A stretch of 64,000 bases of DNA from the NCBI GenBank assembly GCA_022483465.1, contig JAKVNF010000004.1, forward strand, positions 433,713 to 497,712. The letters are read 5' to 3'. Source of the stretch: Lachnospiraceae bacterium. GTDB taxonomy: Bacteria; Bacillota; Clostridia; Lachnospirales; Lachnospiraceae. Below are positions 2,357-56,870 of this stretch, one piece after another. Position 1 is the stretch's first letter; the number at the start of each line of letters is the position of its first letter. The position numbers and the translations under genes were made by a program. The notes under the pieces are model-generated. The model had not been told where the DNA came from and ran no database searches. It was given only the letters and a program-made list of their open reading frames with translations.

Positions 2357-2513
2357 TTATTCGAGCTCTCCGAAACAGCATTTGATGCTGAGTAGTTTTG
2401 CTTGTACCTTTTGTCTTTTTAAGTTCGTTATTGAACTGTTTTATTTCCTTTCTTTCCATTTTTGGCGTTTTTTGTTGTCATTTGGTTGTCGCCATGACAA
2501 CCGATCGACAACA
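2357..2513 (-). repeat. guaA-3'-end-like attachment site 1 with arm repeats
   Basis: TTATTCGAGCTC at 2357-2368 reads on the minus strand as ...Glu-Leu-Glu-stop, the same tail as guaA (55320-55331). TGAACTGTT follows at 2432. TGTC repeats lie at 2476 and 2487, with inverted GACAA repeats at 2495 and 2506. Each pair is 11 bp apart. Spacings match sites 3 and 5 within 1-2 bp. I infer an att remnant of a guaA-targeting island. The IS at 2528 sits just beyond the arms. Confidence 0.65.
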
Positions 2514-2527
2514 TTATTACCGTTTAA

Positions 2528-4421
2528 CCCAAAATCGCAAAGTTTTTTACTAGGCGTCCCGGGATGACTCCATTAAAATGTCAATAGACGTTGGAAATAG
2601 GGCATAAAACGACATTGTAACCTCTGTAAAATGCTAGTATAATAACTGATAGATATTTTACTAGCAATTTAGAGGGCGGCCATGTACAGCAATACAGATG
2701 TACTCGTTAAAACTCCGAAATCAAGCGACAAGGGAACTATCCATATCCTCACCACGGGTTATGTCTTGCTCGCCACAGAGTATCATTGGGACTCTGAGAA
2801 GCGGCGTCCTGTCGACAAACGGATCTCAATCGGAAAAATTGTCGATGGCGATCGCTCTCATATGCATCCAAACAAGAACTATGAGCAGTTCTTCGGTCCC
2901 ATCGATGCTGAGGTGAACCGACTGAAGGACACCTTCGGCACAAAGGCCCGTAAAGCTGCCGGCAAAACGGATTCGAAGCTCTCCTTTGGACCGTACCTGG
3001 TTCTAAAGGCGGCCGCAGAGCAATCCGGATGCTATACCGCTCTGACACGGGTCTACCCTGAATATGAGCGGAAAATCATTGCATTGGCCGTCTACTCCAT
3101 TGTTGCGGAAAGTTCAACTGCCCAGCTGTTTCCCGGTTGGTGTTTTGATCACTACTGCGGTCTGGATCGTGTCATCGACGACAGTGAAGTCAGCGGCCTA
3201 TACCGTCTGATCGGGTCAGATGAGGGAAATATCAATGTGTTCTTCCGGATTTTCCGGGAAGAATACGAGAAACGATTTCCCCGAAAGGACAGCAATCGGG
3301 TCATTGCCTTTGACTCCACCAATCAAAACACCCAGTCCGAGAATGAAGATCTTGCAGAGTTCGGAAAATCCAAGACCGATTTTGGCCTGAAGATCATTAA
3401 CACGGCTATGTTTGTGGATGAAGAGACCGGCATTCCTATGTGGTATGAGCACTACGACGGTTCTCTCCTGGATAAGGTGCAGACGTCCTTCTCATTGAAA
3501 AAGATCGTGGATGCAGGATATCAAAAGCTGTTCGCAATGTTCGATCGAGGATACTTTTCAGAGGACATCATCAAAGCCCTCCGGAAAGTAAAGGATCTGG
3601 AATATGGTGTCCTCTGTCCAGACAATGTCAACTGGGTAGATGCGCTCATCAAAGATCATGGAGCGGAGATCCGCGGAAAGCAGAAATACCTGACGACGGA
3701 GCCCAACGTATTTGGAAAGCGGTACCCGGTAACAGTGGCTGGAAAGGCTTGCTTTGCCTACCTCTTCTTTGATCACTCCCGGGAATTTGATGAGGAACAG
3801 TCCATAAGGAGCACTATTTCCTATTACTTCAATGAGGCATCCAAGAGAAAACGCTACACGGAAAAGATGGCGCAGGACTACGCTCCAAAAGGGATCATTG
3901 TCGTTAAAAAGGCCGATCCAGAAACAGGGAAGAACTTCACCATCCTGGAGGACACTGAAATGATCCAGACGATGGTCGATCGTGCCGGATTCTTTGTTCT
4001 CGTCAGTGATACTGAAATGACGGCATCCGAGGCAATCCGGATTATCCGGCGACGTGATGTTGTGGAGCACGTCTTCGAATCCATCAAGCGGCACTTTGAT
4101 CTGTCGGTCACATACACCCACTCCATCGAGACATATCGGGGGAAGATGTTCACGGCCTTTATCGCAAGCATTCTCTTTGCCACGCTGACATGGGATTTGA
4201 GGGAAGTGCTTCACGATAAGACCAGTGCAACCATCGCCTTCGAGATGATGGAGCTAAACAAGTATAAGGTGGAACTGCAGTCTGATGGCAGTTGGTATCC
4301 GTCCTATGCGATGAGCAGGATTCAGAAGGAACTGGTCTCCAAGGTTGGCCTCACAGAGGACGAGGCAATCAACCAGGCAACTGAGATCAAGCTGCTAGTA
4401 TAAAAACTTGCGATTTAGGGG
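2528..4421 (+). mobile_element. IS1634-type insertion sequence (copy A)
   Basis: This is a 1894-bp element with related ends CCCAAAATCGCAAAG (left) and, inverted, CCCCTAAATCGCAAG (right). It is flanked by a 5-bp duplication TTTAA at 2523-2527 and 4422-4426. It holds one transposase gene and landed directly after the stop codon of the AlbA-type regulator. Confidence 0.8.
2682..4403 (+). CDS. IS1634-family transposase
   Basis: A 573-residue DDE transposase, the usual length for the IS1634 group of the IS4 superfamily. Visible catalytic blocks are VIAFDSTNQ (first Asp, about residue 210), LFAMFDRGYFSED (second Asp, about 287) and the C-terminal RRDVVEHVFESIKRHFDL, whose Glu completes the triad with the Y/F-(2)-R/K-like spacing of this superfamily. 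It starts at ATG 2682 behind AGAGGGCGG. It fills nearly the whole element, and its stop lies 18 bp from the right end. The frame is intact and both ends and the target duplication are present, so it may be active. It is not closely related to the other IS1634-type transposase at 26546-28195. Confidence 0.9.
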   Translation: MYSNTDVLVKTPKSSDKGTIHILTTGYVLLATEYHWDSEKRRPVDKRISIGKIVDGDRSHMHPNKNYEQFFGPIDAEVNRLKDTFGTKARKAAGKTDSKLSFGPYLVLKAAAEQSGCYTALTRVYPEYERKIIALAVYSIVAESSTAQLFPGWCFDHYCGLDRVIDDSEVSGLYRLIGSDEGNINVFFRIFREEYEKRFPRKDSNRVIAFDSTNQNTQSENEDLAEFGKSKTDFGLKIINTAMFVDEETGIPMWYEHYDGSLLDKVQTSFSLKKIVDAGYQKLFAMFDRGYFSEDIIKALRKVKDLEYGVLCPDNVNWVDALIKDHGAEIRGKQKYLTTEPNVFGKRYPVTVAGKACFAYLFFDHSREFDEEQSIRSTISYYFNEASKRKRYTEKMAQDYAPKGIIVVKKADPETGKNFTILEDTEMIQTMVDRAGFFVLVSDTEMTASEAIRIIRRRDVVEHVFESIKRHFDLSVTYTHSIETYRGKMFTAFIASILFATLTWDLREVLHDKTSATIAFEMMELNKYKVELQSDGSWYPSYAMSRIQKELVSKVGLTEDEAINQATEIKLLV

Positions 4422-4637
4422 TTTAATCTTCATGTTTTTCACCATGATCGGGTATGCTCCCTCCTTCCCGAAGACAAATCCGTGCCGTTGGGGACTTAAT
4501 ATTTCCGTCTCGATATATTATACCAGATTGAATCATCGGATTGATGATTTCTTTGAGAAAGCGGTTTCTTTGCGAATAGCCGACGTGAGCCTGAAGTTCT
4601 TTAACAGACTTGGGGCCCTCCTCTCTTAAAAATTGAA

Positions 4638-5851
4638 GGCGTTAGTAAGAAAACGGGTTGATAAGCAATAAGTGCATCTTGTAGTCATCAAATTGCAAGC
4701 AGATTGAGCTCCTTAACATCTCCATAATGGTGTACCTTCTTGGGATTCCTGGATGCAAAGAGAGCGTCCGCAAGTTCCCCAATCGTGGTCCTCTGCCTGT
4801 ACGCTGCCCGGAATACGAGGTTGTAACGGTTCAAATACTTGGTAGCCACGCCGCGATATTCGATATAGCGGTGCTTGATAAAGGAGTGAAGGTTGTTCAC
4901 AGTGTTCAGATTGAAGAAACTTGCCGACTCCTTCTTCACATTCATGACCGTGATTCCCAGGATCTTGCTCAGTCTTGGATACACATTCATGCCGTCCGTC
5001 AGGAAAAGTGTTCCCTTCTGGACATGACCAGTATAGATATCAACAACATCCGCACTGGAAGGCCTTGCCCGGTTCTCGGATTTCACGATCAGATCGCCAG
5101 TCTTGCGCTGTACTGCGGTGCAGATACAGATCTGCTCGTCTGAAAGGCCGCGTTTGGATGCGGGAGTGCCACGCTTGCGGGGCTTTCGACTGGCATCAGG
5201 GCCAAATTTCGTACCTTTTTTGGACTCCGGAACGTAGGTTTCATCCGCTTCCACGACATCTTCCACCGTGGCTGGCTGCTCCACCTGCATGTCCTCGAGA
5301 GCAAGCATGATCTTATGCCGCATGAAGAACAGACTGCTATGGCTGATCTTGCATCCATGGCTGGCAAGTGACTTGACCGTCTTATCCAGAGAGGTCCCCC
5401 TGAGCGTCTCTTCCAGAACCTTGGTCCAGATCTCAGTACCAAAGTGTGAGCCTGAGAGCAAAGTGTTGCTCGTTGTAACAAATGACGTTCCACATTGCCT
5501 GCAGATGTATGCCTGTTTTCCATGTTTGTGTCCATTCCTAACAACATGAGCATTGGAATGGCAGATCGGACAATCCAAACGGGGAGCAATCATCTTCTTC
5601 GGAGAAGAGGTTGCACTCTCATGGGAGAAGCCCTCCATGAGCTTGTTAACAAGAAGAATCAGGTCGTCCCTGGAAAGATCTCTGGCTTCGGTCAGTATGC
5701 GCTCAATGCAGCTCATAGTCTTGCCCTCCTGGCAAGACTATTGTAGTTCAAGTTAGAGAAGGCCGTTGTACAGCAGAATGTACAAAACGGCATATTTTAT
5801 ACTTCTGCTAAAATGCTTTGGAGCTTATCAACCCGTTTTCTTACTAACGCC
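4638..5851 (-). mobile_element. IS1595-family insertion sequence (copy 1)
   Basis: This is a 1214-bp element whose inverted ends begin GGCGTTAGTAAGAAAACGGG. It is flanked by the 8-bp target duplication AAATTGAA at 4630-4637 and 5852-5859, the duplication length expected for IS1595. It is nearly identical to copy 2 at 48401-49614. The same ends cap the MITEs in this window. Confidence 0.93.
4688..5716 (-). CDS. IS1595-family (ISXO2-like) transposase
   Basis: A 342-residue transposase. An N-terminal zinc ribbon is visible at residues ~48-80 (CPICHSNAHVVRNG...YICRQCGTSF), followed by the DDE_Tnp_IS1595 core: VVEADETYVPES (first Asp), FLTDGMNVYPR (second Asp) and NLHSFIKHRYIEYRGV near the C-terminus. 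The frame is intact. It differs from the copy at 48536-49564 by one visible residue (Ser versus Gly in NVYPRLxKILG), which implies recent transposition. As the only full IS1595-type transposase gene family here, it is the likely source of activity for the 308-bp MITEs. Confidence 0.93.
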   Translation of the reverse strand: MSCIERILTEARDLSRDDLILLVNKLMEGFSHESATSSPKKMIAPRLDCPICHSNAHVVRNGHKHGKQAYICRQCGTSFVTTSNTLLSGSHFGTEIWTKVLEETLRGTSLDKTVKSLASHGCKISHSSLFFMRHKIMLALEDMQVEQPATVEDVVEADETYVPESKKGTKFGPDASRKPRKRGTPASKRGLSDEQICICTAVQRKTGDLIVKSENRARPSSADVVDIYTGHVQKGTLFLTDGMNVYPRLSKILGITVMNVKKESASFFNLNTVNNLHSFIKHRYIEYRGVATKYLNRYNLVFRAAYRQRTTIGELADALFASRNPKKVHHYGDVKELNLLAI

Positions 5852-7118
5852 AAATTGAATGACTTTTTCTGTATCAGGCATTTGTTCTCTATCCCACGCC
5901 TGTGCTATAGGTTCATAGAGTCTGTCAAACAAACGCAGGTCAAGAAACCCCGGATAGATGGAAACAACCGGCTGAAGATGGTCATCACTGTTACGATAGC
6001 TATCTATCATCGTCTGAAATCCGGTTCCACCTCGCTCCATTAAATTTGCCACATCCAGACAGGCCGCAATAATGGAATTTCTTCGGATCGACGGGATCGT
6101 CCCCGCCGGATAGGCATCGTAGCTTTTCAGAAGCAGCCATGAACCTGGTGACACGATATCAATCCTGTCACTGTAAATATCCACATCAATCTGTGTTCCT
6201 GCTATAGAATAGTCTCTGTGCGCAATCGCATTGACCATTGCTTCTCTGACAGCTTCTTTGGGATACGACCGGATCTCCTCTCTTCCCCCGTTTTCCGTCT
6301 TTCTCCAACCTGTTTTTGTATTTCTTTCAATGAAGTTTAGCGTACTTCTGAGCACTTGTGATAGAGAGCCTTTGAACCTGTCACTGTCAAGGACAGTGCC
6401 GGTTTTAGTCTTTCCACGCCATAGTCGGCAGCTAACCAGAGTATCAGCTCCAGCATAATCATCCTTAAACATAAGGAAACCGGATTTTGCAAATCCATCC
6501 TTTGTGACAATTTCCTCATTCTGCAGTTCCTTCAAGGTCGGAGCAGATTTATCTTGACGAAATTCTCTGCAAAGATCAATATATTCCGTCCAGCGCTCTT
6601 CCTCATACAGAACATCAGTGCTTTCGTTATCGACACCATGTTTCCGTTTTGACAAAGATATAATGTCTTCCGGCGTAGCCGGTGTGGAATTGCCGTCACC
6701 CTTTATACAAACCGTCTCATTGAAATCGCCTTCACGGTAACGCACGATGGAATCCGATGGTGCTACATGAACAGCCAGAACAAATTTCTCTGCCGCCTCA
6801 TCAACGCTTCGCATCATGTAACTGATTCTGACATGCGGAAAAATATGCCGGTCGTTGACTATTGCAATCAGGTTTTTCGTCCGATCAATGTCACCCAGAT
6901 CTAGTCCAAATGCCTCTCCATCGTTTGAAACGCCAACAAATAGAATGCCTCCATCTCCATTGGCATATCCAACTAGTGATTTCGCCCATTTCACCGGGTT
7001 GTCCGGATTTAACACCGCTTTATATTCGTACTTCCTGTCTTCTGCAATAACATCCGAGTATAATTTCGTGATTCTCATGTGACAATCCTCCGCAGCTCTT
7101 CTTTCATTACCATATCAA

Positions 7119-7300
7119 ACATTGTTTAACATTGCATGAACATTGTTATTAACATTGTTCGACATTGCCCCGATTGGGAATGTTGAATCTCAAACTTCAA
7201 ATCCTATGAGCTGATATTACCCTATTTTTCCATGTAAGGACTGGACTTATGGCCTCCGAAAAAACCTTGGCGAACATTATTCAAACATTGTTACAACATT
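7119..7300. repeat. helically phased ACATTG repeats
   Basis: ACATTG occurs at 7119, 7129, 7140, 7152 and 7162 (spacing 10-12 bp). ACATT recurs at 7274, 7285 and 7296 (exactly 11 bp). The first cluster sits directly upstream of the AlbA-type gene start (7078), so it may be an operator. The spacing also matches the arm-type repeats at island ends in this window. Confidence 0.6.
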
Positions 7301-7320
7301 ACACAGCTCAACAATGTTGA

Positions 7321-7661
7321 AACGCTCCAACTTCGCAACGTCCTGCCCTTGTCCTTATATCCGGTCCTTTCACTTTTATTGTGGGATGAGTCCCTTCTTG
7401 ACCGCCCTCATGGCCCTCTGCCCGGGTTCTCCCCAGATGCCCTTTAGCACACCTTGTATCTGTACCCTTGGCCGGACCGTGGGAGCATCGCCGAGGGGAC
7501 CACGGTCTCAGAGCTGTCGCCGTTAGATCCTCTTGTACGGATGTCTGGATGACTCCATGATCTTCAGAGAGGGGGAATCATTACACAAGGTGTATCTGCT
7601 TTGTGGGTTCCCCTAGAAGAATATAATATAATGGGAATAAGAAAAATTGTCTATACAGGAG
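7321..7661. other. non-coding stretch
   Basis: No convincing gene is visible. There is an 8-bp-stem hairpin GACCGTGG/CCACGGTC at 7475-7507. A possible promoter -10 TATAAT lies near 7625, ahead of the small gene that starts at 7662. Confidence 0.4.
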
Positions 7662-7787
7662 GTGTTAACGCCGTATGTCAAAAACGGCAAGGTGTACTAC
7701 ACGGAGATCACACAGGAGGAAGCCGCGAGGTATGGCCGTCGAATATGGAGAAGGATGCACCCGGAGGAGGCCAGGAAAGCTTCATAG
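7662..7787 (+). CDS. small hypothetical protein, possible island gene remnant
   Basis: The 41-residue frame opens with GTG at 7662 and reads MLTPYVKNGKVYYTEITQ followed by EEAARYGRRIWRRMHPEEARKAS. The composition (charged, with alternating Y/R/E) looks like real coding sequence rather than noise. A TATAAT box lies about 35 bp upstream and a strong terminator follows 28 bp after the stop. Against it, AGGAG abuts the GTG directly, which is too close for normal initiation, so this may be the surviving end of a longer gene. I do not recognise the family. The longer frame in another register (start 7675) is probably spurious. Confidence 0.35.
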   Translation: MLTPYVKNGKVYYTEITQEEAARYGRRIWRRMHPEEARKAS

Positions 7788-7814
7788 GCGTACTTCCAGA
7801 AGCAAAGTATACAG

Positions 7815-7855
7815 AATCCCCACGAATCATTTGCATCCAATGATTCGTGGGGATT
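7815..7855 (+). terminator. rho-independent terminator
   Basis: Perfect 16-bp stem (7815-7830 with 7840-7855, 9-base loop) followed by TTTTCTC. It terminates the small gene at 7662-7787. Confidence 0.75.
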
Positions 7856-7859
7856 TTCT

Positions 7860-8058
7860 CTATGCGTGGATCCTGCCGATCAGGGGATGAGCCGAGCCAG
7901 TACCATTCGCTGGGGCACAATACGCCACATGCGGAGCTGAGCCCCCAGGCTTCGAGGAGATGGACCCTCCGGGATAGTATTCAACTGGTGAAAGAATATG
8001 TGTCTGTTCAACCAATCTCTATCAGGCGCTTACGGTTCGACTGAGGAAAACCAAGGAA
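7860..8058 (+). other. short stretch with a possible gene tail
   Basis: The only coding-like signal is a frame ending at TGA 8058-8060 that reads NLYQALTVRLRKTKE-stop, directly before the TGATCTCA arm repeats. It could be the last residues of a lost gene at an island end. No start or domain is visible. Confidence 0.2.
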
Positions 8059-8276
8059 TGATCTCAAAGTGATCTCACGGATCAAAAATAACCCCCAGGA
8101 TTCCTTTATTTTCAAGGAATTCTGGGGGTTCGTTTACTATTCGAGCTCGAAATACTGATTCTTACCCGTTTGGGTTAAGCTCCATGACAGGATTTGATTC
8201 CATTTGATTTCAGCTATCCTGTTTCTACAGGGTATACGAACTGATGTTATCAATTTGTTATCAAGGAATGTTATCA
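8059..8276 (-). repeat. guaA-3'-end-like attachment site 2 with terminator and arm repeats
   Basis: CTATTCGAGCTC at 8137-8148 reads ...Phe-Glu-Leu-Glu-stop (TAG) on the minus strand. It is followed in that direction by a long hairpin (8090-8130, arms AACCCCCAG and CTGGGGGTT) and an A-run giving a terminal U-run. TGATCTCA repeats lie left of it at 8059 and 8070 (11 bp). GTTATCA repeats lie right of it at 8246, 8257 and 8270. The different arm motifs on the two sides suggest that it separates two different islands. Confidence 0.6.
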
Positions 8277-8283
8277 GTTGCTC

Positions 8284-8646
8284 TTACACCTTCTCCAATG
8301 CGTCATTCTTAGAGAGTAAGTACACACAATACTGATTCATACTGACACCTTCTTCTTTAGAATGTGCCGCCAGCGCCCGGTGAAGGCTTTTCGGGATTCT
8401 CAGCTTAAACTGTCCGGAATAATCGTCGAGCGAAACCGGCTCTGCAATCTCTGTTCCTTCCTCTAATGCAGCTTTCAGCCACGCTTTCTTTGCATCTACA
8501 GCATTTTTTACAACAGATTCCACAGTTTCCCCGACCGTAATGCAGCCGGGAAGTTCGGGATAGCGGGCAACATATCCCCCCTCATCCGAATCCGGAACAA
8601 TCTCCAGCTTATAGGGAAGATTCATATAATATTCAATCGTTTTCAT
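8284..8646 (-). CDS. hicB: HicB-family antitoxin
   Basis: 120 residues from ATG 8644-8646, preceded by GGAGGAGG; the longer upstream frame overlaps hicA and is not the start. The N-terminal ~75 residues form the degenerate RNase-H-like HicB fold (YVARYPELPGCITVGET, then AxxNAxxAxxAWLKAALEEG). The C-terminus is a ribbon-helix-helix/Arc-type DNA-binding segment (GQFKLRIPKSLHRALAAHSK). HicB neutralises HicA and represses the operon. It overlaps hicA by 14 bases, so the two genes are co-translated. The order is hicA then hicB, the common arrangement. Confidence 0.92.
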   Translation of the reverse strand: MKTIEYYMNLPYKLEIVPDSDEGGYVARYPELPGCITVGETVESVVKNAVDAKKAWLKAALEEGTEIAEPVSLDDYSGQFKLRIPKSLHRALAAHSKEEGVSMNQYCVYLLSKNDALEKV

Positions 8647-8884
8647 GTAATGATTCCTCCTCCACGACTTCACGCACCATTTCGACATATACTTTCTTGA
8701 TCGGCTCATGCTTTGGAATCGTAATAGGACTTTTCCCGGGCTTGCGGAAAGTGTAATGACTGCTTCCGCCCTTCGGCGCATTCATTGTGTATCCATAGTT
8801 CTCTAGAACTTTCCTCAGCTCATCAAATCGCATGTCCTTTGACAGCGAAAGAATTCTACTTAAAAGTTTGTCCCACTTCGACAT
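8633..8884 (-). CDS. hicA: HicA-family mRNA interferase toxin
   Basis: 83 residues, a typical HicA size. The dsRBD-like fold is recognisable, with the catalytic His in GGSSHYTFRKPGK at about residue 43. It is preceded by FDELRKVLENYGY, the standard HicA opening helix. HicA cleaves mRNA in the cytoplasm when not bound by HicB. A palindromic operator within the promoter lies 18 bp upstream. The pair sits at an island boundary, consistent with a role in stabilising the island, but that role is inferred. Confidence 0.92.
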   Translation of the reverse strand: MSKWDKLLSRILSLSKDMRFDELRKVLENYGYTMNAPKGGSSHYTFRKPGKSPITIPKHEPIKKVYVEMVREVVEEESLHEND

Positions 8885-8901
8885 TTTGTTCTCCTGATCT
8901 A

Positions 8902-8930
8902 ATAATATATGGTACCATATATAGTGTCAA
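8902..8930 (-). promoter_or_regulatory. hicAB promoter with embedded operator
   Basis: On the minus strand, TTGACA (8925-8930) and TATTAT (8902-8907) are separated by 17 bp, a near-consensus sigma-A promoter. A perfect 18-bp palindrome centred on GGTACC (8905-8922, ATATATGGTACCATATAT) fills the spacer and -10, well placed for repression by the HicA-HicB complex. Confidence 0.85.
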
Positions 8931-8978
8931 GTTTTCCGTGCCTTTTAATGCAAACTCTTCATGGCTTTTCTACTAAAC

Positions 8979-10779
8979 ACGATCAATCGCATATCTGTAC
9001 ATATGAGTTGAAAGATAAATCCAGGTTTTGTCTGTGAGATTATCCCAGAGAGGGTGATCGCACATATGTGCAGAGGCTGAAGAGCGTGTTTTTATCGCGT
9101 TTTTCATCACTGTAACTAAAGAAAACTATTGTAAAATGCCCGACCCTCTACTATAATGTACATATGTGTTTTAAATAATGTACATATGTGGAGACTCTGA
9201 TGAGCAACACCTGCACAATACCGGATAATGTCAAAAAATATCGACCAGAAAAGTGTACTCGTATACGCAATGACAACGGGGTATACCGGGTTTACAAATA
9301 CTCCGCTATTAAGCTTCCAAACGGTAAATGGAGCAGTTCTTCTGGATATTTGATTGGAAAGATCATCCCTGATCAGGGATTTTCTCCAAACAAACGATAT
9401 CTCAGAGAACAGACCCGGTCTGAAGGAAATAGTACAACAGATATTGAGGAGATCACCGATCTTGCATATGGACAGTACGCTCTGCTGATCTTCCTCTCTG
9501 GTGATGTGTACACCAGGCTGAAGAAGTGCTTCCCCCTGGAGAAAGCTACACAGATCTATGCCTACGGTCTGATTCTGTGCGCCAACGGGTTTCTGCATGT
9601 TGATCAGATCAATGAGATCTACCAGGAGAGCTACCTGTCGCTTCTCTATAAAGACTATGACTTCAAGATGGGGCCCAGCGCTCTTGGAAATTTGCTTCAC
9701 GACCTTGGTGCGAGGGGCAATCCTGTCAGAGCGTTCGAGCAGTCACTGATCGATGACTGCTCCAGGAACATCGCAATCGACGGACATGTGATTCGGTCCT
9801 GCTCAGAGGAGAACGATCTTGCAGAGGCAGGGTACAAGACCAAACTGCTTAAGTCTTCTCAGGTCAACATCCTGATTGCCTATGACACCAAGCGGCATGT
9901 GCCCCTGATGTACCGGGCTTATCGCGGTTCCAGCGTTGATAAAAAGAGCTGTGAGAGTTTCCTTCGCAGCCGTTCCTTCACCAACACAAGGTTCGTGGTG
10001 GACAGGGGTTTCTTCTCCTCTGTGCTGCTGGATCTTATGTCCTCCAACGGAAACAGCTACATCATCCCGGTCCCGACAAGCGATAAGAACTTCAAACGGA
10101 TCAAAGTGAAACTGCAATACACCTCAGGTGAGTTCGTTTACAAGGGCAACACGAAGGATTCCGCCCGGATCCTCTACTATGAGGAGCAGATCGATGACAA
10201 CACCCGGATGATCTTCTACAAGGACTACGATGAAAACAACAGCAAGCGGAAAAGCTACCGGCAGTCCATTGATGAAGGGGAGGCCGGATACACACAGGAA
10301 AACTACGACAAGTATTCTGACTGGTGGGGTGTCTATGTGCTCCAGACCAGTTGCCAGGATCCTGCACCCCAGGTATTCACAGAGTACAAGGATCGCTGGT
10401 CGATTGAGACGTACAACAACTACATCAAGAACGACGCCGATTATAACGATCTGAAGTTACAGGACTACTACAACTTTCAGGGCTTCAACTTCATCATGCT
10501 GGTTGCCGGTATCATTCATTCAAATCTGCAGGATGCAACGAAGGTACTGGAGAAGCCGAATATCTCGACGATTGACATTCTCCTCAAGTCAGGTCACATG
10601 CGGCTCGTCCGGCAGGATTCCGAATGGGTCCTACACAACACAAGGACAAAGGATCTGGCGCTTCTCAAAGAAATGGGATTTGCACCTGATATGCCCTATA
10701 AAGCATCTAAATAGATATATGAACTAATAGTTATTATCCGGGATTCCGTTCATATGTACAGAAACCCGTTTGATCGTGA
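8979..10779 (+). mobile_element. IS4-superfamily insertion sequence
   Basis: Ends share an imperfect inverted repeat with cores ACGATCAA and TCTGTACATATGA, at about 8979-9006 and 10752-10779. A candidate 6-bp duplication CTAAAC lies at 8973-8978 and 10780-10785. Exact ends are uncertain by about 2 bp. It sits about 50 bp upstream of the hicAB promoter. Confidence 0.7.
9200..10714 (+). CDS. IS4-superfamily DDE transposase
   Basis: 504 residues from ATG 9200 (GGAG eight bases upstream). DDE blocks are IAIDGHVIRS (first Asp, ~residue 193), RFVVDRGFFSS (second Asp, ~266) and YKDRWSIETYNNYIKN (Glu, ~395), spaced as in IS1634/IS4-type enzymes. The frame is intact. Between 9150 and 9190 the upstream DNA carries two copies of TAATGTACATATGTG, and the terminal repeats share the TACATATG core, so these may be binding sites for the transposase that also limit its transcription. 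It is not obviously a sibling of the two IS1634-type enzymes in the window. Confidence 0.82.
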   Translation: MSNTCTIPDNVKKYRPEKCTRIRNDNGVYRVYKYSAIKLPNGKWSSSSGYLIGKIIPDQGFSPNKRYLREQTRSEGNSTTDIEEITDLAYGQYALLIFLSGDVYTRLKKCFPLEKATQIYAYGLILCANGFLHVDQINEIYQESYLSLLYKDYDFKMGPSALGNLLHDLGARGNPVRAFEQSLIDDCSRNIAIDGHVIRSCSEENDLAEAGYKTKLLKSSQVNILIAYDTKRHVPLMYRAYRGSSVDKKSCESFLRSRSFTNTRFVVDRGFFSSVLLDLMSSNGNSYIIPVPTSDKNFKRIKVKLQYTSGEFVYKGNTKDSARILYYEEQIDDNTRMIFYKDYDENNSKRKSYRQSIDEGEAGYTQENYDKYSDWWGVYVLQTSCQDPAPQVFTEYKDRWSIETYNNYIKNDADYNDLKLQDYYNFQGFNFIMLVAGIIHSNLQDATKVLEKPNISTIDILLKSGHMRLVRQDSEWVLHNTRTKDLALLKEMGFAPDMPYKASK

Positions 10780-10921
10780 CTAAACTATGGGGAGCTCAAA
10801 TTTTGACTACTTTCACGGTTTCAAGAATATCATTAATTCATCGAAGTTTTTATCGCTTCTATGATATGTTACCGCTAAAGGATTACTCATTTGTACTAAA
10901 AGAGCCCAAAGAGTATAAAAA

Positions 10922-11397: not shown

Positions 11398-11430
11398 TTA
11401 ACTTGCTCTTAACTTGCTCTTAACTTGCTC
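11398..11430. repeat. three tandem 11-bp repeats TTAACTTGCTC
   Basis: Three exact copies at 11398, 11409 and 11420, with a further TTAACTTGCT at about 11320. The 11-bp period again places the copies on one face of the helix, like the arm repeats elsewhere in the window. It is probably a protein-binding array, perhaps the arm sites of another lost integrase. Confidence 0.6.
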
Positions 11431-11449
11431 TTGCAATCTCAGAGTGTGA

Positions 11450-11650: not shown

Positions 11651-11665
11651 GCTATGAGTAAGACA

Positions 11666-11706: not shown

Positions 11707-11712
11707 TTTGCA

Positions 11713-30771: not shown

Positions 30772-30772
30772 G

Positions 30773-48237: not shown

Positions 48238-48400
48238 ACTCCCCACCTACCGCACTATAGCGGCAGATTGATTTCTGAAGTTCATAAAAATGATGATCCT
48301 AGCGTGCTGTCTTATGCGGCATGCTTTTTTCGTATACTGTTGACTATTCTAACAATCCGATTATGATAGTCTCCCGAAAGAAGGATAAGAAAAAGGAGAA

Positions 48401-49614: not shown

Positions 49615-49739
49615 AAGGAGAAGATCCACGCCCAGACAGCCGGTCTTCTCCTTAAGCACTATGTACGCAATGTGAACCGCCGGGCTCTCACCTTGCCAGT
49701 GAACACACCACCGTCCCACATATACGTAAAGCTAACATT

Positions 49740-50315
49740 ATGATAAGGAGAATTTCGTTACTTTGCAATACCCAGAGGATCTCAGAGCCAGATGATCTTC
49801 TGTTCACATACCCCGGAGATGAACTCCCAGACCTTTCGCTTGTCAACTGCCCGGCCTGCCGCGCCAGAGGCATGTATCAGCCCCACGGCAGCTACAAGCG
49901 CTACGTTGTGGATGTGTATCGGGGAAAGATATACGAACTCCAGGTCGCTGTCCCCAGAGTCAGATGTACCTGTGGGCATACCCATGCTCTCCTGAAAGAC
50001 ACACTCATTCCCTACTCCCAGTACACCCTGCGGTTCATCCTCACGGTCCTGAAGGCCTATTTCCGCCACAGCCGCACCGTAGCACAGATCTGTCGGGACT
50101 TCTGCATCGCCGCGCCGACCCTGTACCGGTGGAAGCGTGTCTTTCTGGCACACCGAGAGCTCTGGCTGGGGCTCCTGCGCAGCCGGGACAGTGATCCCTC
50201 ATACTTTCTGAGATCCATCGATCATCAGCCGCATCTCTCTTCCTTCCTGCACGCATTCTTTCTCAGGGCAGCTACCTCATTCCTGCAGCTGCACAGGAAT
50301 CCGGCATACTCCTGA
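49740..50315 (+). CDS. DUF6431-family protein of a transposition unit
   Basis: 191 residues from ATG 49740. N-terminal zinc-binding Cys motif (VNCPACRARGMYQPHGSYKR, then RCTCGHTHALL), a conserved LKDTLIPYSQYTLRFILTVL helix, and a helix-turn-helix VAQICRDFCIAAPTLYRWKR. It stands 105 bp ahead of the rve-type transposase and AAA ATPase genes on the same strand. The related gene at 22423-22980 stands ahead of an IS21 pair. It probably binds DNA; whether it is needed for transposition is unknown. Confidence 0.75.
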   Translation: MIRRISLLCNTQRISEPDDLLFTYPGDELPDLSLVNCPACRARGMYQPHGSYKRYVVDVYRGKIYELQVAVPRVRCTCGHTHALLKDTLIPYSQYTLRFILTVLKAYFRHSRTVAQICRDFCIAAPTLYRWKRVFLAHRELWLGLLRSRDSDPSYFLRSIDHQPHLSSFLHAFFLRAATSFLQLHRNPAYS

Positions 50316-50420
50316 CAGGCCACACCCTCTATCGCCGCTGATGGCTCTTATTCCATAAGGTGTGAATAGTTCCGGCCTCCTGCCTGATTTAGGATACAGC
50401 CATCAGGAGGTAAGAGTACT

Positions 50421-52008
50421 ATGAATAATATTTATGCTAATGATGAACTCGCAAAAGCTACTGCTGTTGCCCAGTTCCGTTTCGCACTGATCGCTCCTGT
50501 AATCCAGGGGCTTTATTCTGATGCCAGTGCCACGGAGTATTACAAACGGATCACGGAAAAACCGCTGAAGCTTCCAGACGGAACTGCTGTGACATACAGC
50601 TACAAGACCGTTGAAAAGTGGGCATCGATGTACAAACGTGGTGGTTATGATGCACTGATGCCCCAGGCCCGTTCTGACAAGGCGTTAGTAAAGAACCGGG
50701 TTGATGGGTTCCATACCACAACCTCCATGGTGAACTCTCGACGCGATAATGTCCGATGAAGATATAGAATCCCCATTTGGAGCTCTTTTCTTCTCCGCAT
50801 AATGCCTATCTTGTTATTTATAGTCACATACTCGGCAAGTGAGTGTATGTGTTTAGGCAATCTAGGTGATGCTTTGTTACATGATGCAACACAGCACGGA
50901 TAGGAGTGTACCCAGCTCGAGCTCAAAGTGAGGTATTAGTGGTCTCATGCTAGGCGATCGCTTATCAACCCGTTTCTTAACTAACGCCTCTGACAAAGGT
51001 TCTGCCAGAGCGCTCTCTGATGCGGCCATCGAGGAGATCTACAAGGTCAAGGAGAAGTTTCCGAGGCTGAACGCCACACAGATCTATCACCACCTTGTTG
51101 GCAACGGTCTTCTCTCCTCAAAAGTCAATGTCTGCTCTGTCCAGCGCTTCATCAGACGTAACGATCTCAAGTCGGCCAGAAATCCCAACGTACGGGACCG
51201 CAAACAGTTCGAGGAGGACGCTTTCGGGCGTATGTGGCAGGCTGATACCTGTTACCTGCCGCACATCACCGAGGACGGGCAGGTCCGCCGCGTCTATGCC
51301 ATCATGATCATCGATGACCATTCGAGGCTCCTCGTCGGCGGCGAACTGTTCTACAGTGACAATGCCGCCAACTTCCAGAAAGTATTCAAAGACGCCATCG
51401 CAGCCTACGGCATCCCTTCAAAGCTCTACGTCGATAACGGCTGTTCCTATGCCAATGAACAGCTTTCCCTCATCTGCGGCAGCCTCGGCGTTGTACTGCT
51501 CCACACAAGAGTACGCGACGGCGCCTCCAAAGCGAAGATCGAGCGCAGCTGGTTAACACTCAAGGAGACCTGGCTGTACAAGCTGGATATGGAGTCCATC
51601 CACTCCCTGGCGCAGTTCAACGGCATGCTCAGGGAATATATGCGTTCTTATAACACTTCCTTCCATTCCGGGATCGGCTGTACGCCCATGGACCGGTACC
51701 TGAAGACAAAGGACCAGATCAAGGCTCCTGCCTCACAGGAATGGCTGGATGAATGTTTTCTCAACCGGATCAACCGACGCGTGAAGAAAGATGCCACTGT
51801 CTCCATCGATAAAGTCAGTTACGACGTGCCCATGCAGTTCATCGGGCAGAGCGTTGAGATCCGCTTCCAGCCCAGCGACATGAGCACAGCCTTCATCCTT
51901 TACGATAAAAAGCGCTTCCCGATCCGTCAGACCAACCGTGTAGAGAACTGCCACACGAAGCGTGATAACATCACGATCGACTACGCGAAGATCGGAGATG
52001 CATCATGA
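50421..52008 (+). pseudogene. rve-type (TniA/Mu-like) transposase, interrupted by a MITE
   Basis: It starts at ATG 50421 with AGGAGG. The first 89 codons encode a helix-turn-helix region (YSYKTVEKWASMYKRGGYDA). After ...MPQARSDK the MITE at 50682-50988 cuts in; the frame resumes with GSARALSDAAIEEIYKVKEK. Removing the MITE and one TCTGACAA duplication rejoins it. The catalytic core is otherwise whole: MWQADTCYLPHI (first Asp), KLYVDNGCSYANEQ (second Asp), GASKAKIERSWLTLKE (Glu), then a Mu-like C-terminal beta domain. Its TGA overlaps the ATPase start. It is inactive as it stands. Confidence 0.88.
50682..50988 (-). mobile_element. ~308-bp MITE, copy d
   Basis: 307 bp, opposite orientation to copy a. 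It has an 8-bp duplication TCTGACAA (50674-50681 and 50989-50996) and is inserted in the rve-type transposase gene. Confidence 0.94.
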
Positions 52009-52817
52009 GCAGTTTTACAGCGTACTACGGGCTTACCTGCAATCCGTTCGACAAGCAGTCACTGAAGGAAAGGGATCATTTCGAGTCCTCGGATTTCAAA
52101 GAAATGACTAGCCGCCTGAATTATCTCAAGGACGTGCGTGGGATCGGCGTTTTTACCGCGCGTCCCGGGATGGGCAAGACCTTTGTCCTGCGCTGCTTCG
52201 CCGCCGGACTCAACCCAAACCTGTACCACATGGCTTACATCTGCCTGTCCACCGTAGGCGTCACAGATTTCTATAAAGAGTTCTGCGGCATCCTTGGCGT
52301 CAGCCAGAAAGGCAGCAAACCGGCGTTGTTCAAGGCGATCCAAGAGCAGATCTATTACCTGTACAAAGAGAAGAGGCAGCCGCTGATCCTTGCGATAGAT
52401 GAAGCGCAGGAGCTCTCCACCTCGATCCTGAACGATCTGAAGATGATCATGAACTTCAGATACGATTCCCTGAACTGCTTCACACTCATCCTTGTGGGAG
52501 AATCCCAGCTGAACATAAAGCTCTCTCTTCCCATCCACGAAGCGATCCGTCAGCGGATCACTGTTCACTATGACTTTAAGGGGCTCACTGCAGATGAGAT
52601 CCCGGCATATGTGCGGCATAAGATCCATGTCGCCGGAGGAGCCGATTCCATTATTGACGATGCTGCTATGGCGTCAGTCCATTCCCTGTCGCAGGGTAAT
52701 CCCCGGGTCATCGATACGCTGATGACGGATGCCCTGACTATCGGCGCCCAGATGGATAAAAAGGTCATCGACGCTGAAGTTATCATGGCCGCCGCAAATA
52801 ACCGGCAGCTCGGATGA
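52005..52817 (+). CDS. ExeA/TniB-like AAA ATPase
   Basis: 270 residues from ATG 52005, overlapping the transposase stop (ATGA). AAA_22/ExeA-type ATPase: opening motif YYGLTCNPFDKQS, Walker A TARPGMGKTFVLR (~residue 50), Walker B LILAIDEAQELS (~130), sensor FTLILVGESQLN (~165), and a C-terminal lid HSLSQGNPRVIDTLMTDAL. Paired with an rve transposase, it would select and load targets, as TniB and TnsC do. It is intact, although its transposase is broken. Confidence 0.88.
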   Translation: MSSFTAYYGLTCNPFDKQSLKERDHFESSDFKEMTSRLNYLKDVRGIGVFTARPGMGKTFVLRCFAAGLNPNLYHMAYICLSTVGVTDFYKEFCGILGVSQKGSKPALFKAIQEQIYYLYKEKRQPLILAIDEAQELSTSILNDLKMIMNFRYDSLNCFTLILVGESQLNIKLSLPIHEAIRQRITVHYDFKGLTADEIPAYVRHKIHVAGGADSIIDDAAMASVHSLSQGNPRVIDTLMTDALTIGAQMDKKVIDAEVIMAAANNRQLG

Positions 52818-52844
52818 AGAAGCAGAAGAACAGATCAAAAGACC

Positions 52845-53075
52845 GTGAGGAGGGGATCTCTCTGCGGCCTTTTTCCGTATCTCGCCTTAATAACAGGCAC
52901 CGGCGCGGAACTGGTAAGAGACCTGGCAGGATCATGCCGCATTTCTGCTCAGAGTGTGCCGCAGGTTACGGTCTGGCACAATCCCAACGGAGAGAACACC
53001 GAAATTAAACTGCCGTTTGCGCCGCTGGCAACGTGCCGCATGACAGTGAGAAAGGCCATTTGCTCGCTCGACTGA
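52845..53075 (+). CDS. possible small protein downstream of the AAA ATPase
   Basis: 76 residues if started at GTG 52845. The frame ALITGTGAELVRDLAGSCRI then VTVWHNPNGENTEIKLPFAP reads like natural protein, and it lies 27 bp after the ATPase stop on the same strand. There is no clear ribosome site and I recognise no family. A competing frame from ATG 52814 (overlapping the ATPase stop by ATGA) is basic and low in complexity and seems less likely. Confidence 0.3.
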   Translation: MRRGSLCGLFPYLALITGTGAELVRDLAGSCRISAQSVPQVTVWHNPNGENTEIKLPFAPLATCRMTVRKAICSLD

Positions 53076-53242
53076 ATCAGAATACTATGCCGAAGATATT
53101 TGATTATGCGGCATGTTTCATACATACTTTAGACAATATGTAATGGCCCCCGAGTTTTGTAGTCATCGAGGATTAGCCGTATACTCTATAACGTATTCAA
53201 AGAGTTACAGCATACCATCATACAAAATCGGAGGCCATTGAC

Positions 53243-54382
53243 ATGGAGTATAGCACAGTGTTTGTTGGAATGGATGTCCATAAAGACACTTTCTCGGTTT
53301 GTTGTTACACATACGAGGATGACAAGTGCAGATTCAAGCGCACCTTTAGTTCTGATTACAAAAATGTGCTCCAATATATCGCCAGCATGCACAAACAGTA
53401 TGGTGAAAAAGCAAATTTCGTCACCGCATATGAAGCTGGCTGCCTTGGGTATTCACTGTACAATCAGCTTACCGCTCATAATGTAGAGTGTATTATCATG
53501 GCTCCGACAACCATGGCCAAGACTGCAAACGCCGGAAAGCACAAAACAGACCGTCTGGATTCTGAAATGATTGCCAAGTGTCTTGCCGACAGAAACTATC
53601 ATGCAGTCCATATTCCTACTGAGGAGGATGACCAGGTCAAAGAATACATTCGCATGCGCGATGATCATAAATTGGCATTGAAGAAAATCAAACAGCAGAT
53701 TCTTGCATTCTGCCTCCGCCGAGGACTGCATTATTCAGATCCAGATTCAAAGTCCAAACCTCATAACTGGACACAGAAACATCTCAAATGGCTCAGAGAC
53801 CAGGCTTCTGCTCTGAATGGAGAATACAAAGATGCCCTTGAGGAATATCTGGGGACCTTCGATTATCTGACCGATAAGATCACACGTCTTGACCAGAAGA
53901 TCGAGGAGATCTCTCAGAAAGATACCTATCGCGAGAAGGTCAAACATCTCTCATGTTTCATCGGAGTCAAAACGGTCACCGCAATGGGAGTTCTTTCCGA
54001 GGTGGGTGACTTTAGCCGGTTTAAATCGGCTGAGCAGTTTGCCTCCTATCTTGGTCTTGTACCAGGGGAGAATTCGAGTGGCGGATCCAGAAATATGCTG
54101 TCACTGACCAAAGCAGGAAATTGTCATGTGCGCAGACTGTTGATTGAATCTGCACAAAGCTACGCAAGAGGCAGAATCGGAGCTAAATCCAAAGAACTTC
54201 TAAAACGCCAGGAGGGAGTAGAGCCCAAGTATGTGGCATATGCAGATAAAGCCAATGAACGGCTGCGCAGGAAGTTTTACAGGCTTACGGAAGACGGGAA
54301 GATCAGAAATGTGGCTGTTGCAGCTGTTGCGCACGAGCTTTCCTGCTTCATCTGGGGAATGATGACAGATCATGTGGCGTAA
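53243..54382 (+). CDS. IS110-family transposase (DEDD plus Ser recombinase)
   Basis: 379 residues from ATG 53243. The N-terminal RuvC-like DEDD domain shows VGMDVHKDTFSV (Asp), VTAYEAGCLGYSLY (Glu) and GKHKTDRLDSEMIAKCL (Asp pair). A coiled-coil middle covers ~residues 140-225. The C-terminal Transposase_20 domain has IGVKTVTAMGVLSEVGD and GLVPGENSSGGSRN, where the Ser run holds the catalytic serine. It is intact. IS110 enzymes use an element-encoded bridge RNA; a candidate lies directly downstream. Confidence 0.93.
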   Translation: MEYSTVFVGMDVHKDTFSVCCYTYEDDKCRFKRTFSSDYKNVLQYIASMHKQYGEKANFVTAYEAGCLGYSLYNQLTAHNVECIIMAPTTMAKTANAGKHKTDRLDSEMIAKCLADRNYHAVHIPTEEDDQVKEYIRMRDDHKLALKKIKQQILAFCLRRGLHYSDPDSKSKPHNWTQKHLKWLRDQASALNGEYKDALEEYLGTFDYLTDKITRLDQKIEEISQKDTYREKVKHLSCFIGVKTVTAMGVLSEVGDFSRFKSAEQFASYLGLVPGENSSGGSRNMLSLTKAGNCHVRRLLIESAQSYARGRIGAKSKELLKRQEGVEPKYVAYADKANERLRRKFYRLTEDGKIRNVAVAAVAHELSCFIWGMMTDHVA

Positions 54383-54816
54383 TGAAACAAGTGGGGTACA
54401 TCTGCTGAACGCTGCTGTCAAGACTGCTACGCACCGCCGTAGGCGGCAAGGTCTTGACATCATCGTTCAGCAGATGTCAGCGATCATTAGGCAGTAAGCG
54501 GGATAAGCCGCTTACAGCGGCTGAGCAAAATCGAAGGCACCTTGAGGTGGTATTGAAGTCCTTCAAGGTTTGGGCTATCTGCGACAAATCTATGTTGACA
54601 CAGACAGTAATATTTCTGTGATTCACGTTTTTAGACGGCAGAGCCCGCGGCGGACCATTGGCCTGTTGGTAAGGAGCAATCCGAATCCACGTATATCAGA
54701 GTGGTCAAATGCCGGTGAACTGAGATTCGATGCCACCTCAAGATGCCTTCGGTCAGGGAGTACATGGCCAGCCAGGACTACAAAAGTTTGCGGGTGACAC
54801 CCGGAAGGTCTTGACA
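54383..54816 (+). ncRNA. candidate IS110 bridge RNA region
   Basis: A nested stem starts at about 54398: outer arms ACATCTGCTGAACG and CGTTCAGCAGATGT, inner GTCAAGAC/GTCTTGAC, apical CGCC/GGCG. Further hairpins are GTAAGCGG/GCCGCTTAC (54493-54514), CCTTGA/TCAAGG (~54540-54567) and CACAGA/TCTGTG (~54599-54620). AAGGTCTTGACA in the first stem (54447-54458) recurs at the right end of the element (54804-54815), as expected if an RNA guide pairs with the donor end. Exact RNA ends are unknown. Confidence 0.55.
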
Positions 54817-54898
54817 AGGGCCATTACATATCAGATTTCTTCGGCATAGTTTTTTCTTCGGCATAGTCACTATTATACCGAATTCAGGATAACTCAGA

Positions 54899-55190
54899 CA
54901 GAGGCTGCCATTATCGATGGCCTGGTTGGATTGATCGTATGAATTCAGCTGGACTGATCAGATCTATGTCAAAAAAGGGATGCTCTCCAGACAATTCAGC
55001 CTGTGAAGGCTTTTTCGGTCGATTGAAAAACGAGATGTACTATGGGCATAACTGGAAGAATGTAACAATTGACCAGCTCATTGAGAAAGTCGACAAGTAC
55101 ATACGCTGGTATTCAGCAGAACGGATTAAGCTTTCACTAGGAGGGCTAAGCCCACTTCAGTATCGCAAGATGCTTATGCTAGACGTCTAA
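54899..55190 (+). pseudogene. IS3-family OrfB transposase, C-terminal fragment
   Basis: Same fragment as at 44293-44590 in the opposite direction: DRGCHYRWPGWIDRMNSAGL then SMSKKGCSPDNSACEGFFGR and the end LGGLSPLQYRKMLMLDV. One residue differs in the stretch after VTID (Leu here, Phe there). The start is missing and the first two catalytic Asp are absent. Confidence 0.85.
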
Positions 55191-55247
55191 TGGCGGTCCA
55201 AGATTCCGTCCGCACCCCCAAATGGCCCAAATCACCCGACGCTAACA
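54899..55247 (+). mobile_element. IS3-family element, 3' half (right copy)
   Basis: Mirror image of 44236-44590, ending with the IS terminus ...GCTAACA at 55247. It lies only about 20 bp from the guaA terminator, so it may have removed the left arm of the newest island. Confidence 0.85.
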
Positions 55248-55267
55248 TCATTTCTGAATTAAAAATA

Positions 55268-55331
55268 GCCAGAACCCCTATAAAATAAGGGTTTCTGGCC
55301 TCACAATCACAAAAATTACTTATTCCAATTC
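55268..55331 (-). repeat. guaA 3' end and terminator, current attachment site
   Basis: TTATTCCAATTCGATTG (55320-55336) encodes Ile-Glu-Leu-Glu-stop. The terminator stem (GCCAGAA.../...TTCTGGC, 55268-55299) with a U-run in the minus direction follows. It is the reference for the five similar sites further left. Confidence 0.75.
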
Positions 55332-56870
55332 GATTGTTCCCGGCGGCTTACTCGTGAGATCATAGAACACTCTGTTGACGCCCTTGACCTCATTGATGAT
55401 CCGGTTCATGCAGGTCTGGAGCACGCTCCAGGGAATCTCTGCCGCCTCTGCGGTCATGAAATCAGAGGTGATCACACCGCGCAGGGCCACCGCATAGTCG
55501 TATGTTCTGCCGTCTCCCATGACGCCCACCGAGCGCAGATTGGTCAGAGCGGCAAAGAACTGGCCTTTTCCCATGTCGATGCCGGCCTTCTCGAGCTCCT
55601 CCCGGTAGATGGCATCCGCATCCTGGGTGATCCGCACCTTTTCTGCTGTCACCTCGCCCACAATGCGCACGCCCAGTCCCGGGCCGGGGAAGGGCTGACG
55701 GAAGACCAGGTTTTTCGGCAGTCCCAGCTCCAGGCCGGTCTGCCGCACCTCATCCTTGAAGAGATTGCGGAGGGGCTCCACGATCTCCTTGAAGTCCACA
55801 TGCTTGGGAAGACCGCCCACGTTGTGATGAGACTTGATCACCGCGCTGCCGGTGCCGACAGCACCGCTCTCCACCACATCGGGATAGATGGTTCCCTGTG
55901 CCAGGAAGTCCACCCGGCCGATCTTCTTGGCCTCTTCCTCAAAGACATTGATGAACTCCGCGCCGATGATCTTGCGCTTCTGCTCCGGATCGGTCACCCC
56001 GGCGAGCTTGTCGTAGAAGCGCTGCTGGGCATTGACACGGACAAAGTTCAGCTCAAACGGTCCCTTCTCGCCAAAGACCGCCTCGACCTCATCGCCCTCA
56101 TTCTTGCGCAGCAGACCGTGGTCCACAAACACACAGGTCAGCTGCTTCCCGACGGCGCGGGAGAGAAGGGCTGCTGCCACAGAGCTGTCGACGCCGCCGG
56201 AGAGTCCCAGCAGCACCTTGCCATCTCCAATCTTCGCACGCAGAGCCTTCACGGTCTCCTCCACGAAAGAGGACATCACCCAGTCTCCGCTGCAGCCGCA
56301 GACATCGATGATGAAGTGGCGCAGCATCTTCATGCCCTCGGTGGTGTGCACCACCTCCGGGTGGAACTGCACCGCGTAGAGTTTGCGCGCCGGATCCTCC
56401 ATGGCTGCCACCGGACAGTTCTCGGTGTGGGCTGTCACATGGAAGCCCTCCGGTACACTGGCGATGTAGTCGGTGTGGCTCATCCAGGTTGTGGTCTCTC
56501 CCGGCACATCCTGGAACAGGACGGAATTCCGGTCATCCACGGTGATCTGCGTGTGGCCGTACTCGCTGACCGGTGCCGTCTTGACCGTGCCGCCGAGCTT
56601 GTAGGCCATCAGCTGGGATCCGTAGCAGATGCCCAGCACCGGAATGCCCAGGGAAAACAGTGCCGCATCGTAGGTCGGGGAATCCTCCTTGTACACGCTG
56701 TTGGGCCCGCCCGTCAGAATGATCCCCTTGGGATGGAGATCTCGGATCTGTTCTATCGGCATGGTGTACGGATGGATTTCACAGTAAACGTGATTCTCTC
56801 TGACGCGTCTTGCTATCAGCTGCTTGTACTGGCCGCCGAAGTCCAGGACGATCATCAATTCTCTGGCCAT
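55320..56870 (-). CDS. guaA: GMP synthase (glutamine-hydrolysing)
   Basis: 516 residues, normal length, from ATG 56868-56870 with GAGAGGAGG upstream. It converts XMP, ATP and glutamine to GMP in the last step of guanine nucleotide synthesis. The N-terminal class I glutamine amidotransferase shows Cys in [17 protein letters not shown] and His/Glu in [10 protein letters not shown]. The ATP-pyrophosphatase has the P-loop [32 protein letters not shown] begins the dimerisation domain, and the protein ends KPPGTIELE. The 3' end is a known integration target for genomic islands in several Firmicutes and other bacteria, and the layout here fits that. Confidence 0.97.

Follow-up and report, generated by a model that had tools for sequence, protein, structure and literature searches.

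We analyzed a 64,000-nucleotide stretch of the genome of a gut bacterium of the Lachnospiraceae (contig JAKVNF010000004.1, positions 433,713 to 497,712; hereafter the window), in which guaA, the gene for GMP synthase, is followed by a block containing further copies of its last codons. Sequence comparison indicates that this block is very probably a decayed tandem stack of integrative elements, that is, remnants of integrative and conjugative elements (ICEs) or integrative and mobilizable elements (IMEs) of the sort called cis-mobilizable elements (CIMEs), which inserted serially at guaA. The comparison covers the ends of the elements, their homologues at guaA in other genomes, arm repeats and the pairing of these repeats across intervals, and the integrases of relatives. 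Serial site-specific insertion at guaA had been proposed in an earlier note on this DNA, and the guaA homologues of the ends, the integrase-bearing elements, the paired arm words and the longer stacks found elsewhere support it.

Six sites reading GAR-Leu-GAR-stop lie on the minus strand of the window, at 55320 (guaA itself), 31108, 21143, 10968, 8137 and 2357, and none lies on the plus strand. First-order Markov sequences of the same composition gave an expectation of 0.35 Glu-Leu-Glu-stop sites per strand and a maximum of 2 in 40 trials, so the array in one orientation that the earlier note described is real. Its other details were also recovered: GAA and GAG, TTG, CTG and CTC, and all three stop codons occur across the six sites, and guaA and the site at 31108 have 12 identical bases (GAATTGGAATAA). 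None of the five copies outside guaA is the end of a gene, with at most 45 open codons upstream. When positions +1 to +60 were folded, guaA and four of the five extra sites showed hairpins (z scores in Table 1), and 2357 had none (z = +1.0). The hairpins were thus present at four of five sites as claimed, but to call them unrelated was too simple, since the flanks resemble the guaA 3' flanks of other species. At gathering scores, Rfam had no match in the window.

We then compared the displaced ends with guaA ends of relatives. In DNA searches of 62 genomes of the genus, the window's own included, the units at 31108, 21143 and 10968 were found as guaA 3' ends of other genomes (Table 1). The displaced flanks were also scored against 100 guaA downstream flanks, with 20 shuffles and with control flanks taken 300 bases further on. 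Scores for 31108, 21143, 10968, 8137 and 2357 were 130, 158, 89, 55 and 49, compared to shuffled maxima of 34, 31, 37, 29 and 30 and to best control flanks of 28, 23, 24, 30 and 23. Three of the five displaced ends are therefore tied closely to guaA in other genomes and two (8137 and 2357) weakly. The outermost end, 2357, is probably an element end too, because its match to the guaA end of L108 takes in one TTGATAACA arm copy. We had considered 2357 as the original guaA end and dropped this candidate, as its right flank aligns to the L108 guaA end (49 versus 30). No displaced end further out was found within L050, a 20-kb stretch comprising the left flank and the outer end.

A direct repeat with an 11-bp period stands at -116 to -122 before all five displaced cores (6 to 8 matching letters out of 8). 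Downstream of the stop, 21143 and 8137 have an intact right repeat starting at +59; at 31108 and 10968 it is decayed, and at 2357 and guaA it is not clear. Among 132 guaA-type ends, of which 108 were distinct and 93 long enough for the test, a right repeat at +55 to +60 was present in 41 of the 93, whereas seven shifted offsets gave 0 to 3. An IntTn916-type integrase was encoded within 6 kb at 15 of 18 guaA loci with the right repeat versus 1 of 29 without it; this count covers loci with at least 3 kb downstream and excludes L038 and loci fetched through their integrase. At one such locus, G015, guaA is followed by the hairpin, the arms, a helix-turn-helix regulator on the opposite strand, a small open reading frame (ORF), the integrase and a NikA-like gene. 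The integrases of G015 and G010 contain Arm-DNA-bind_4 (PF14657), SAM_3 (PF14659) and Phage_integrase (PF00589) domains. The AlphaFold model of the former starts with three strands and a helix, its best fold match being the Tn1549 integrase. In G072, a unit of the type found at the right end of interval B is accompanied by an integrase split over two frames. No such integrase is left in the genome of the window, so mobility is deduced from relatives.

The stretches between successive ends, labeled A (innermost) to E, allowed us to compare the words repeated in the left and right arms. The same arm word occurred at both ends in 18 of 23 intervals over all stacks scored, or in 16 of 19 when the window was excluded, while permutation of the words gave a mean of 3.57 and a maximum of 12 in 100,000. 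The five misses were D and E of the window, one interval of G317, L131 (one letter off) and L031. The count leaves out interval A of the window, which lacks a right arm; G230 at 49046, which lacks a left word; every G366 site, since that stretch has no guaA; and L037, L049, L120, L129 and L135, which have no right word at guaA. Interval D has a decayed TGGGTAC-type word on the right, as deduced from G043, and a TGATAAC type on the left; interval E has a TGAGATC type on the right and a TGACAAC type on the left. With unlike end words, each of the two probably holds remnants of two elements and looks composite. Counting the unlike ends in this way, the stack would comprise remnants of about eight elements. 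Elements that each carry a private arm word are possibly new.

Four species share a right end from GAATGATAAG onward, and the preceding codons differ (GAGCTG, GAGATG, GAATTG and GAGCTC). On the other side, the left end of element B differs between the window and G069 at a single base in 401, a C/G just before GAAT, and the two sequences diverge directly after GAAT. Because the right ends and the left ends part there, strand exchange is predicted to lie within SGAAT; the weak pair 8137/L115 differs within GAAT and so does not help in placing it. The Glu-Leu codons of the displaced copies would then belong to the left arm of the element, so the kept Glu-Leu peptide would reflect the recombination core as well as coding.

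According to the mechanism that we propose, the elements entered one by one at the last guaA codons. Each attP would combine left and right arm repeats with a core resembling GARYTSGAATRA and, in most cases, a terminator hairpin, and an IntTn916-type tyrosine integrase would exchange strands within SGAAT. The core of Tn5801/CW459tet(M) is GAGTGGGAATA. guaA would keep its own coding sequence through the last Leu codon, the newcomer would give it the end of the last codon, a stop, a terminator and a right arm, and the previous guaA end would be displaced outward, behind the left arm of the newcomer. The earlier idea that each incoming element rebuilds the guaA C terminus thus stands for the end of the last codon, the stop and the terminator, but not for the Glu-Leu codons of the displaced copies, which would come from the left arm. 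The order of insertion would follow from this mechanism, and the exact overlap, termination at the hairpins and functional independence through arm words are likewise expected rather than observed.

Stacks of this kind are not unique to the window, since others were found at guaA in G317, G230 and G234. With E 1e-80 as the cutoff, a search with the L142 integrase found it in 88 of 373 genomes of the order. In G317, seven displaced ends follow guaA within ~131 kb, and of the five integrases detected there one has internal stops; in this stack (L229 to L235, G317:C1:2718000-2857999) the integrases are of one type and on one strand, and the arm words chain in 6 of 7 intervals. Three displaced ends accompany guaA both in G230, where one of four integrases has a stop, and in G234, and one does so in the stretch of G415 that was read. 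In Lachnoclostridium sp. An131 (L122), guaA and a displaced end are separated by an element of ~9 kb that has the same word at both its ends. The window is a decayed example of such a guaA stack. Comparison with the proteins of relatives' elements recovered in it short remnants, transposases, regulators, transporters and weak matches to its trio of recombinases.

Several observations weigh against serial insertion at guaA. DNA searches of the 62 genomes returned no guaA-linked relative of 8137 (one 36-base match) or of 2357, whose matches beyond its own genome were confined to the last ~70 query bases, a dispersed repeat. The flank matches of these two ends, to L115 and L108, are weak, and the L115 core (GAATTTGAGTGA) departs from the 8137 core inside GAAT as well. 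An intact right repeat remains at two of five displaced ends, being decayed or absent at the other three, and arm decay does not rise steadily outward along the stack. Unlike words end two of the four scored intervals of the window, and one of the two matches relies on a decayed single copy (B). No empty site was found: when the ORFs of L050 were compared to 99 relative loci around guaA, there was no clear orthologue behind guaA. The best match had 33% identity over 878 amino acids and lay ~4.6 kb behind guaA in L106, and the others were weaker or were regulators; all were taken as paralogues. In the genome of the window (G000), neither an Arm-DNA-bind_4 match nor a homologue of the G015 integrase was found at E 0.001, and the three Phage_integrase proteins at 45067-48237 had no Arm-DNA-bind_4 match.

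We also considered that two or more elements might have arrived jointly in an already assembled composite, through transfer or homologous recombination. A review describes the transfer of entire CIME-ICE tandems (PMC5704250), and the unlike arm words of D and E indicate that rearrangement probably occurred. On the other hand, the left end of element B (400/401) adjoins a different displaced end in G069, and C-type right ends stand directly at guaA in four species; B and C therefore occur apart, and joint arrival appears unlikely. The pattern Glu-Leu-Glu-stop is short and degenerate, and 8137 and 2357 have weak guaA relatives, so that chance matches or unrelated gene ends had to be weighed. The five extra copies on a single strand, where 0.35 would be expected, and the left arm repeats before all five displaced ends (6 to 8 of 8) leave this explanation a negligible probability, and it is refuted for 31108, 21143 and 10968 by their guaA homologues. 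Insertion sequences aimed at terminators or at the guaA end could have made the copies in place of integrases, and transposase genes do occur in all five intervals. We consider this highly improbable, since the repeat layout accompanies the integrase in relatives (15/18 versus 1/29) and the window's transposases fall into several dissimilar Pfam families. Serial insertion by integrases thus remains the preferred explanation.

Each integrase would recognize its own arm word, probably through one beta-strand face of its arm-binding domain, so that elements with one core would stay separately addressed and could pile up. Among 295 positions of 21 non-redundant integrases, residues 17, 15 and 13 ranked 1st, 2nd and 7th for association with the arm word. 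Nearest-neighbor prediction from these three residues gave 0.91 of five letters right, on the same training data from which the triple was picked, and the whole arm domain gave 0.90, compared to 0.70 for the rest of the protein, a mean of 0.62 and a maximum of 0.85 for random arm-domain triples, and 0.52 by chance. Against an address code, positions 3, 14, 111 and 28 score as well as or better than 13. Moreover, arm similarity correlated with the arm domain (0.67) and with the other two domains (0.49 and 0.42), each above all 2,000 permutations, so descent contributes to the signal and is uncorrected in these statistics.

Two further sets of integrases were examined. The first comprised 40 integrases with site and arm; 37 of them could be aligned, and 14 fell below 85% identity both to the training set and to one another. 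All 14 obeyed the residue-17 rule; the five-letter prediction was fully right in the 9 with a known triple and 0.47 to 0.92 right in the other 5, with a mean of 0.89 over the 14 (chance, 0.55). L214, a related row outside the 14, was predicted with one letter wrong. The second set, which partly overlaps the first, consisted of 40 loci, 15 with a guaA-type site and arm and 25 without such a site. The rule held in 14 of the 15, with L254, which has two possible registers, counted as held; the miss was L246 (TGATAGC with Arg). Of the 15, 11 fell below 85% identity to the training set, and 10 of these followed the rule. In the AlphaFold model, residues 12 to 19 form the second of three strands, so 13, 15 and 17 should lie on one face, and this face would contact DNA by analogy with the arm domain of Tn916. 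Querying solved structures by sequence with only the arm domain produced no match at E 5. Together, these data lead us to lean toward a simple arm code of the IntTn916 type: a shared core, private 7-base arm words with 11-bp spacing at both ends, read by residues 13, 15 and 17 (for residue 17, Arg with ..AC, Tyr with ..T and His with ..CC), and addresses that would block cross-action. The arm-word rule and the residue code are the more novel part of our results and are so far correlations; our search of the open-access literature on arm sites and their recognition found no paper announcing such a code.

The 3' end of guaA is a known target, and the stack is unusually deep and decayed but of a known kind. 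In the portions of the sources available, Tn5801-like elements with imperfect 11-bp direct repeats at their ends (PMC4844618), the streptococcal ICE_SmiB6_guaA (PMC4701971) and three IMEs of a review table (PMC5704250) target this gene end, and the epsilon15 integrase cluster, from another subgroup (IntSXT), also targets guaA (PMC8138268). The window resembles the Tn5801-like elements and ICE_SmiB6_guaA in the gene end, with insertion at the last guaA codons, in the 11-bp direct repeats and in the Tn916 family. The Tn5801-like elements are described in those portions as single, whereas in the window one core is common to several elements whose arm words differ. With the IntTn916 subgroup, as the relevant part of PMC8138268 presents it, the relatives' integrases (G015 and G010) share arm-binding, SAM-like and catalytic domains; they differ within it in targeting guaA with an arm word that varies by element, and the window itself has no such integrase. 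Tandem decayed elements that keep att sites are termed CIMEs, and their gathering CIME accretion (PMC5704250 and PMC7563491, in the passages concerned). The likeness to this process lies in tandem elements at one 3' gene end that keep their att sites and no longer have integration genes. It may extend to the loss of transfer genes: a Pfam scan of 38 ORFs of the block (E 0.001), which did not extend to its other small ORFs, contained no relaxase or conjugation family. Cores and left arm repeats persist at 5/5 displaced ends and an intact right repeat at 2/5, and the integration genes are gone from the genome of the window. Comparison of end units and neighboring genes points to an ICE or IME origin with the same att sites through the C-type unit with an integrase and a NikA-like gene (G015) and the B-type unit (G072). 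In 75 genomes of Streptococcus salivarius, 33 islands with two elements and four with three are reported in the corresponding section of PMC7563491; the window differs in its six ends, remnants of about eight elements and lack of such an integrase. Our search of the open-access literature found no paper on guaA-integrating elements of Lachnospiraceae.

The features of the window are collected in Table 1. Beyond short element remnants in B and C, the intervals contain cargo and insertion sequences with several transposase families. In interval C, 259 bases at the right end are 87% identical to the G015 element and are followed by a transposase.

Table 1. Features of guaA and of the intervals in the window (x/8, letters alike in the arm repeat; z, folding of +1 to +60)
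Feature	Position	Strand	Remarks
guaA (GMP synthase), target gene	55320..56870	-	ends Ile-Glu-Leu-Glu-stop
Current core site GAATTGGAATAA, guaA 3' end	55320..55331	-	exchange place from comparison of shared ends
Terminator-like hairpin 3' of guaA, assigned to innermost element A	55267..55300	-	z = -4.5
Repeat fragment overlapping expected place of element A right arm	54839..55249	+	second copy at 44234-44644, inverted, 96%; presumably an IS3-type transposase end
Interval A, innermost element	31120..55319		now cargo and insertion sequences
Interval A, IS110-type transposase	53243-54382
Interval A, three tyrosine recombinases	45067-48237
Interval A, sugar ABC transporter genes	37449-43120
Interval A, histidine kinase	35638-37284
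Interval A, AraC-type response regulator	33496-35115
Element A left arm repeat TGACAACAATATGACATCAA	31222..31241	-	7/8
Displaced end 1, GAATTGGAATAA	31108..31119	-	unit is guaA end in G006, G071, G072 (96, 95, 92% over ~80 bases)
Displaced end 1 hairpin	31060..31102	-	z = -3.9; right arm beyond it decayed, one TGAGTACATTTT copy left
Interval B	21155..31107		TGAGTAC as arm word on both sides (decayed on the right); contains an IS21 pair, a LacI-type regulator, a transposase and a MatE transporter
Interval B, stretch resembling ORFs beside L133 and L186 elements	30755-30955
Element B left end	21145..21545	-	400/401 bases identical to G069:C21 (L188)
Element B left arm repeat TGAGTACATTTTGAGTACAC	21256..21275	-	8/8
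Displaced end 2, GAGCTGGAATGA	21143..21154	-	unit is guaA end in G015, G069, G060, G053 (91 to 98%)
Displaced end 2 hairpin	21096..21136	-	z = -5.5
Element C right arm repeat TGACAATACAATGACAATAC	21064..21083	-	8/8
Interval C	10980..21142		TGACAAT as arm word on both sides; carries LacZ and an MFS sugar transporter as cargo
Element C left arm repeat GTGACAATAAAATGACATTC	11082..11101	-	6/8
Displaced end 3, GAGCTCGAATAA	10968..10979	-	unit like guaA end in G043 (81%)
Displaced end 3 hairpin	10922..10959	-	z = -6.7; right arm decayed
Interval D	8149..10967		looks composite; HicB-like antitoxin gene, transposase
Interval D left arm repeat TTGATAACAAATTGATAACA	8245..8264	-	8/8
Displaced end 4, GAGCTCGAATAG	8137..8148	-	weakly like L115 guaA end, 55 vs 29 (maximum of 20 shuffles)
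Displaced end 4 hairpin	8090..8130	-	z = -5.3
Right arm repeat TGAGATCACTTTGAGATCAT behind displaced end 4	8058..8077	-	8/8
Interval E	2369..8136		looks composite; IS1595-type element, Schlafen/AlbA protein, transposase
Interval E left arm repeat GACAACCAAATGACAACAAA	2471..2490	-	7/8
Displaced end 5, GAGCTCGAATAA	2357..2368	-	outermost found
Right flank of displaced end 5	2290..2354	-	weakly like L108 guaA end, including one TTGATAACA arm copy

Some other repeats and gene arrangements were seen. Positions 4638-5851 and 48401-49614 of the window are identical inverted copies of an IS1595-type element (1,214 bases), with a diverged third near 43135-43640. Repeats of 309 bases (44683-44991 and 50681-50989) flank the recombinases at 45067-48237, a trio that we take to resemble a recombinase-in-trio element, and further copies lie at 29963-30271 and 35354-35662. 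Positions 2055-2157, directly behind a hairpin at 2158-2191, look like the 5' end of a group II intron; the Rfam search at gathering scores returned no match. Their first ~57 bases occur again in 26 of the 62 genus genomes (counting that of the window), frequently close to contig ends. At L031, L037 and L129 in other genomes, guaA is separated from displaced ends by short stretches of ~1.1 to 2.2 kb that carry HicB-like or DUF3990 genes; these stretches look like gene cassettes, and no integrase was found in them. L038 (12433-13416), L179 and L182 contain a second, shorter GMP-synthase-like gene that ends in Val-Glu-Tyr-Glu and is the target of elements of the same kind. An inner hairpin motif like ACCCAGTATTTATGCGGGT occurs in many guaA right ends (L104, L107, L133, L149 and others), even in those without the long outer stem, and may be a terminator or a binding site within attP.

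The stack amounts to an ordered record of repeated invasions at one essential gene, and the stacks of relatives, which reach guaA plus seven displaced ends, suggest a lasting role of the guaA 3' end as a hub for mobile elements in these Clostridia. Arm words offer a means to find and parse elements whose genes are lost. If the arm code holds true in binding, partners among integrases and att sites would be predictable from sequence, and the code would account for the coexistence of many elements at one core without cross-excision.

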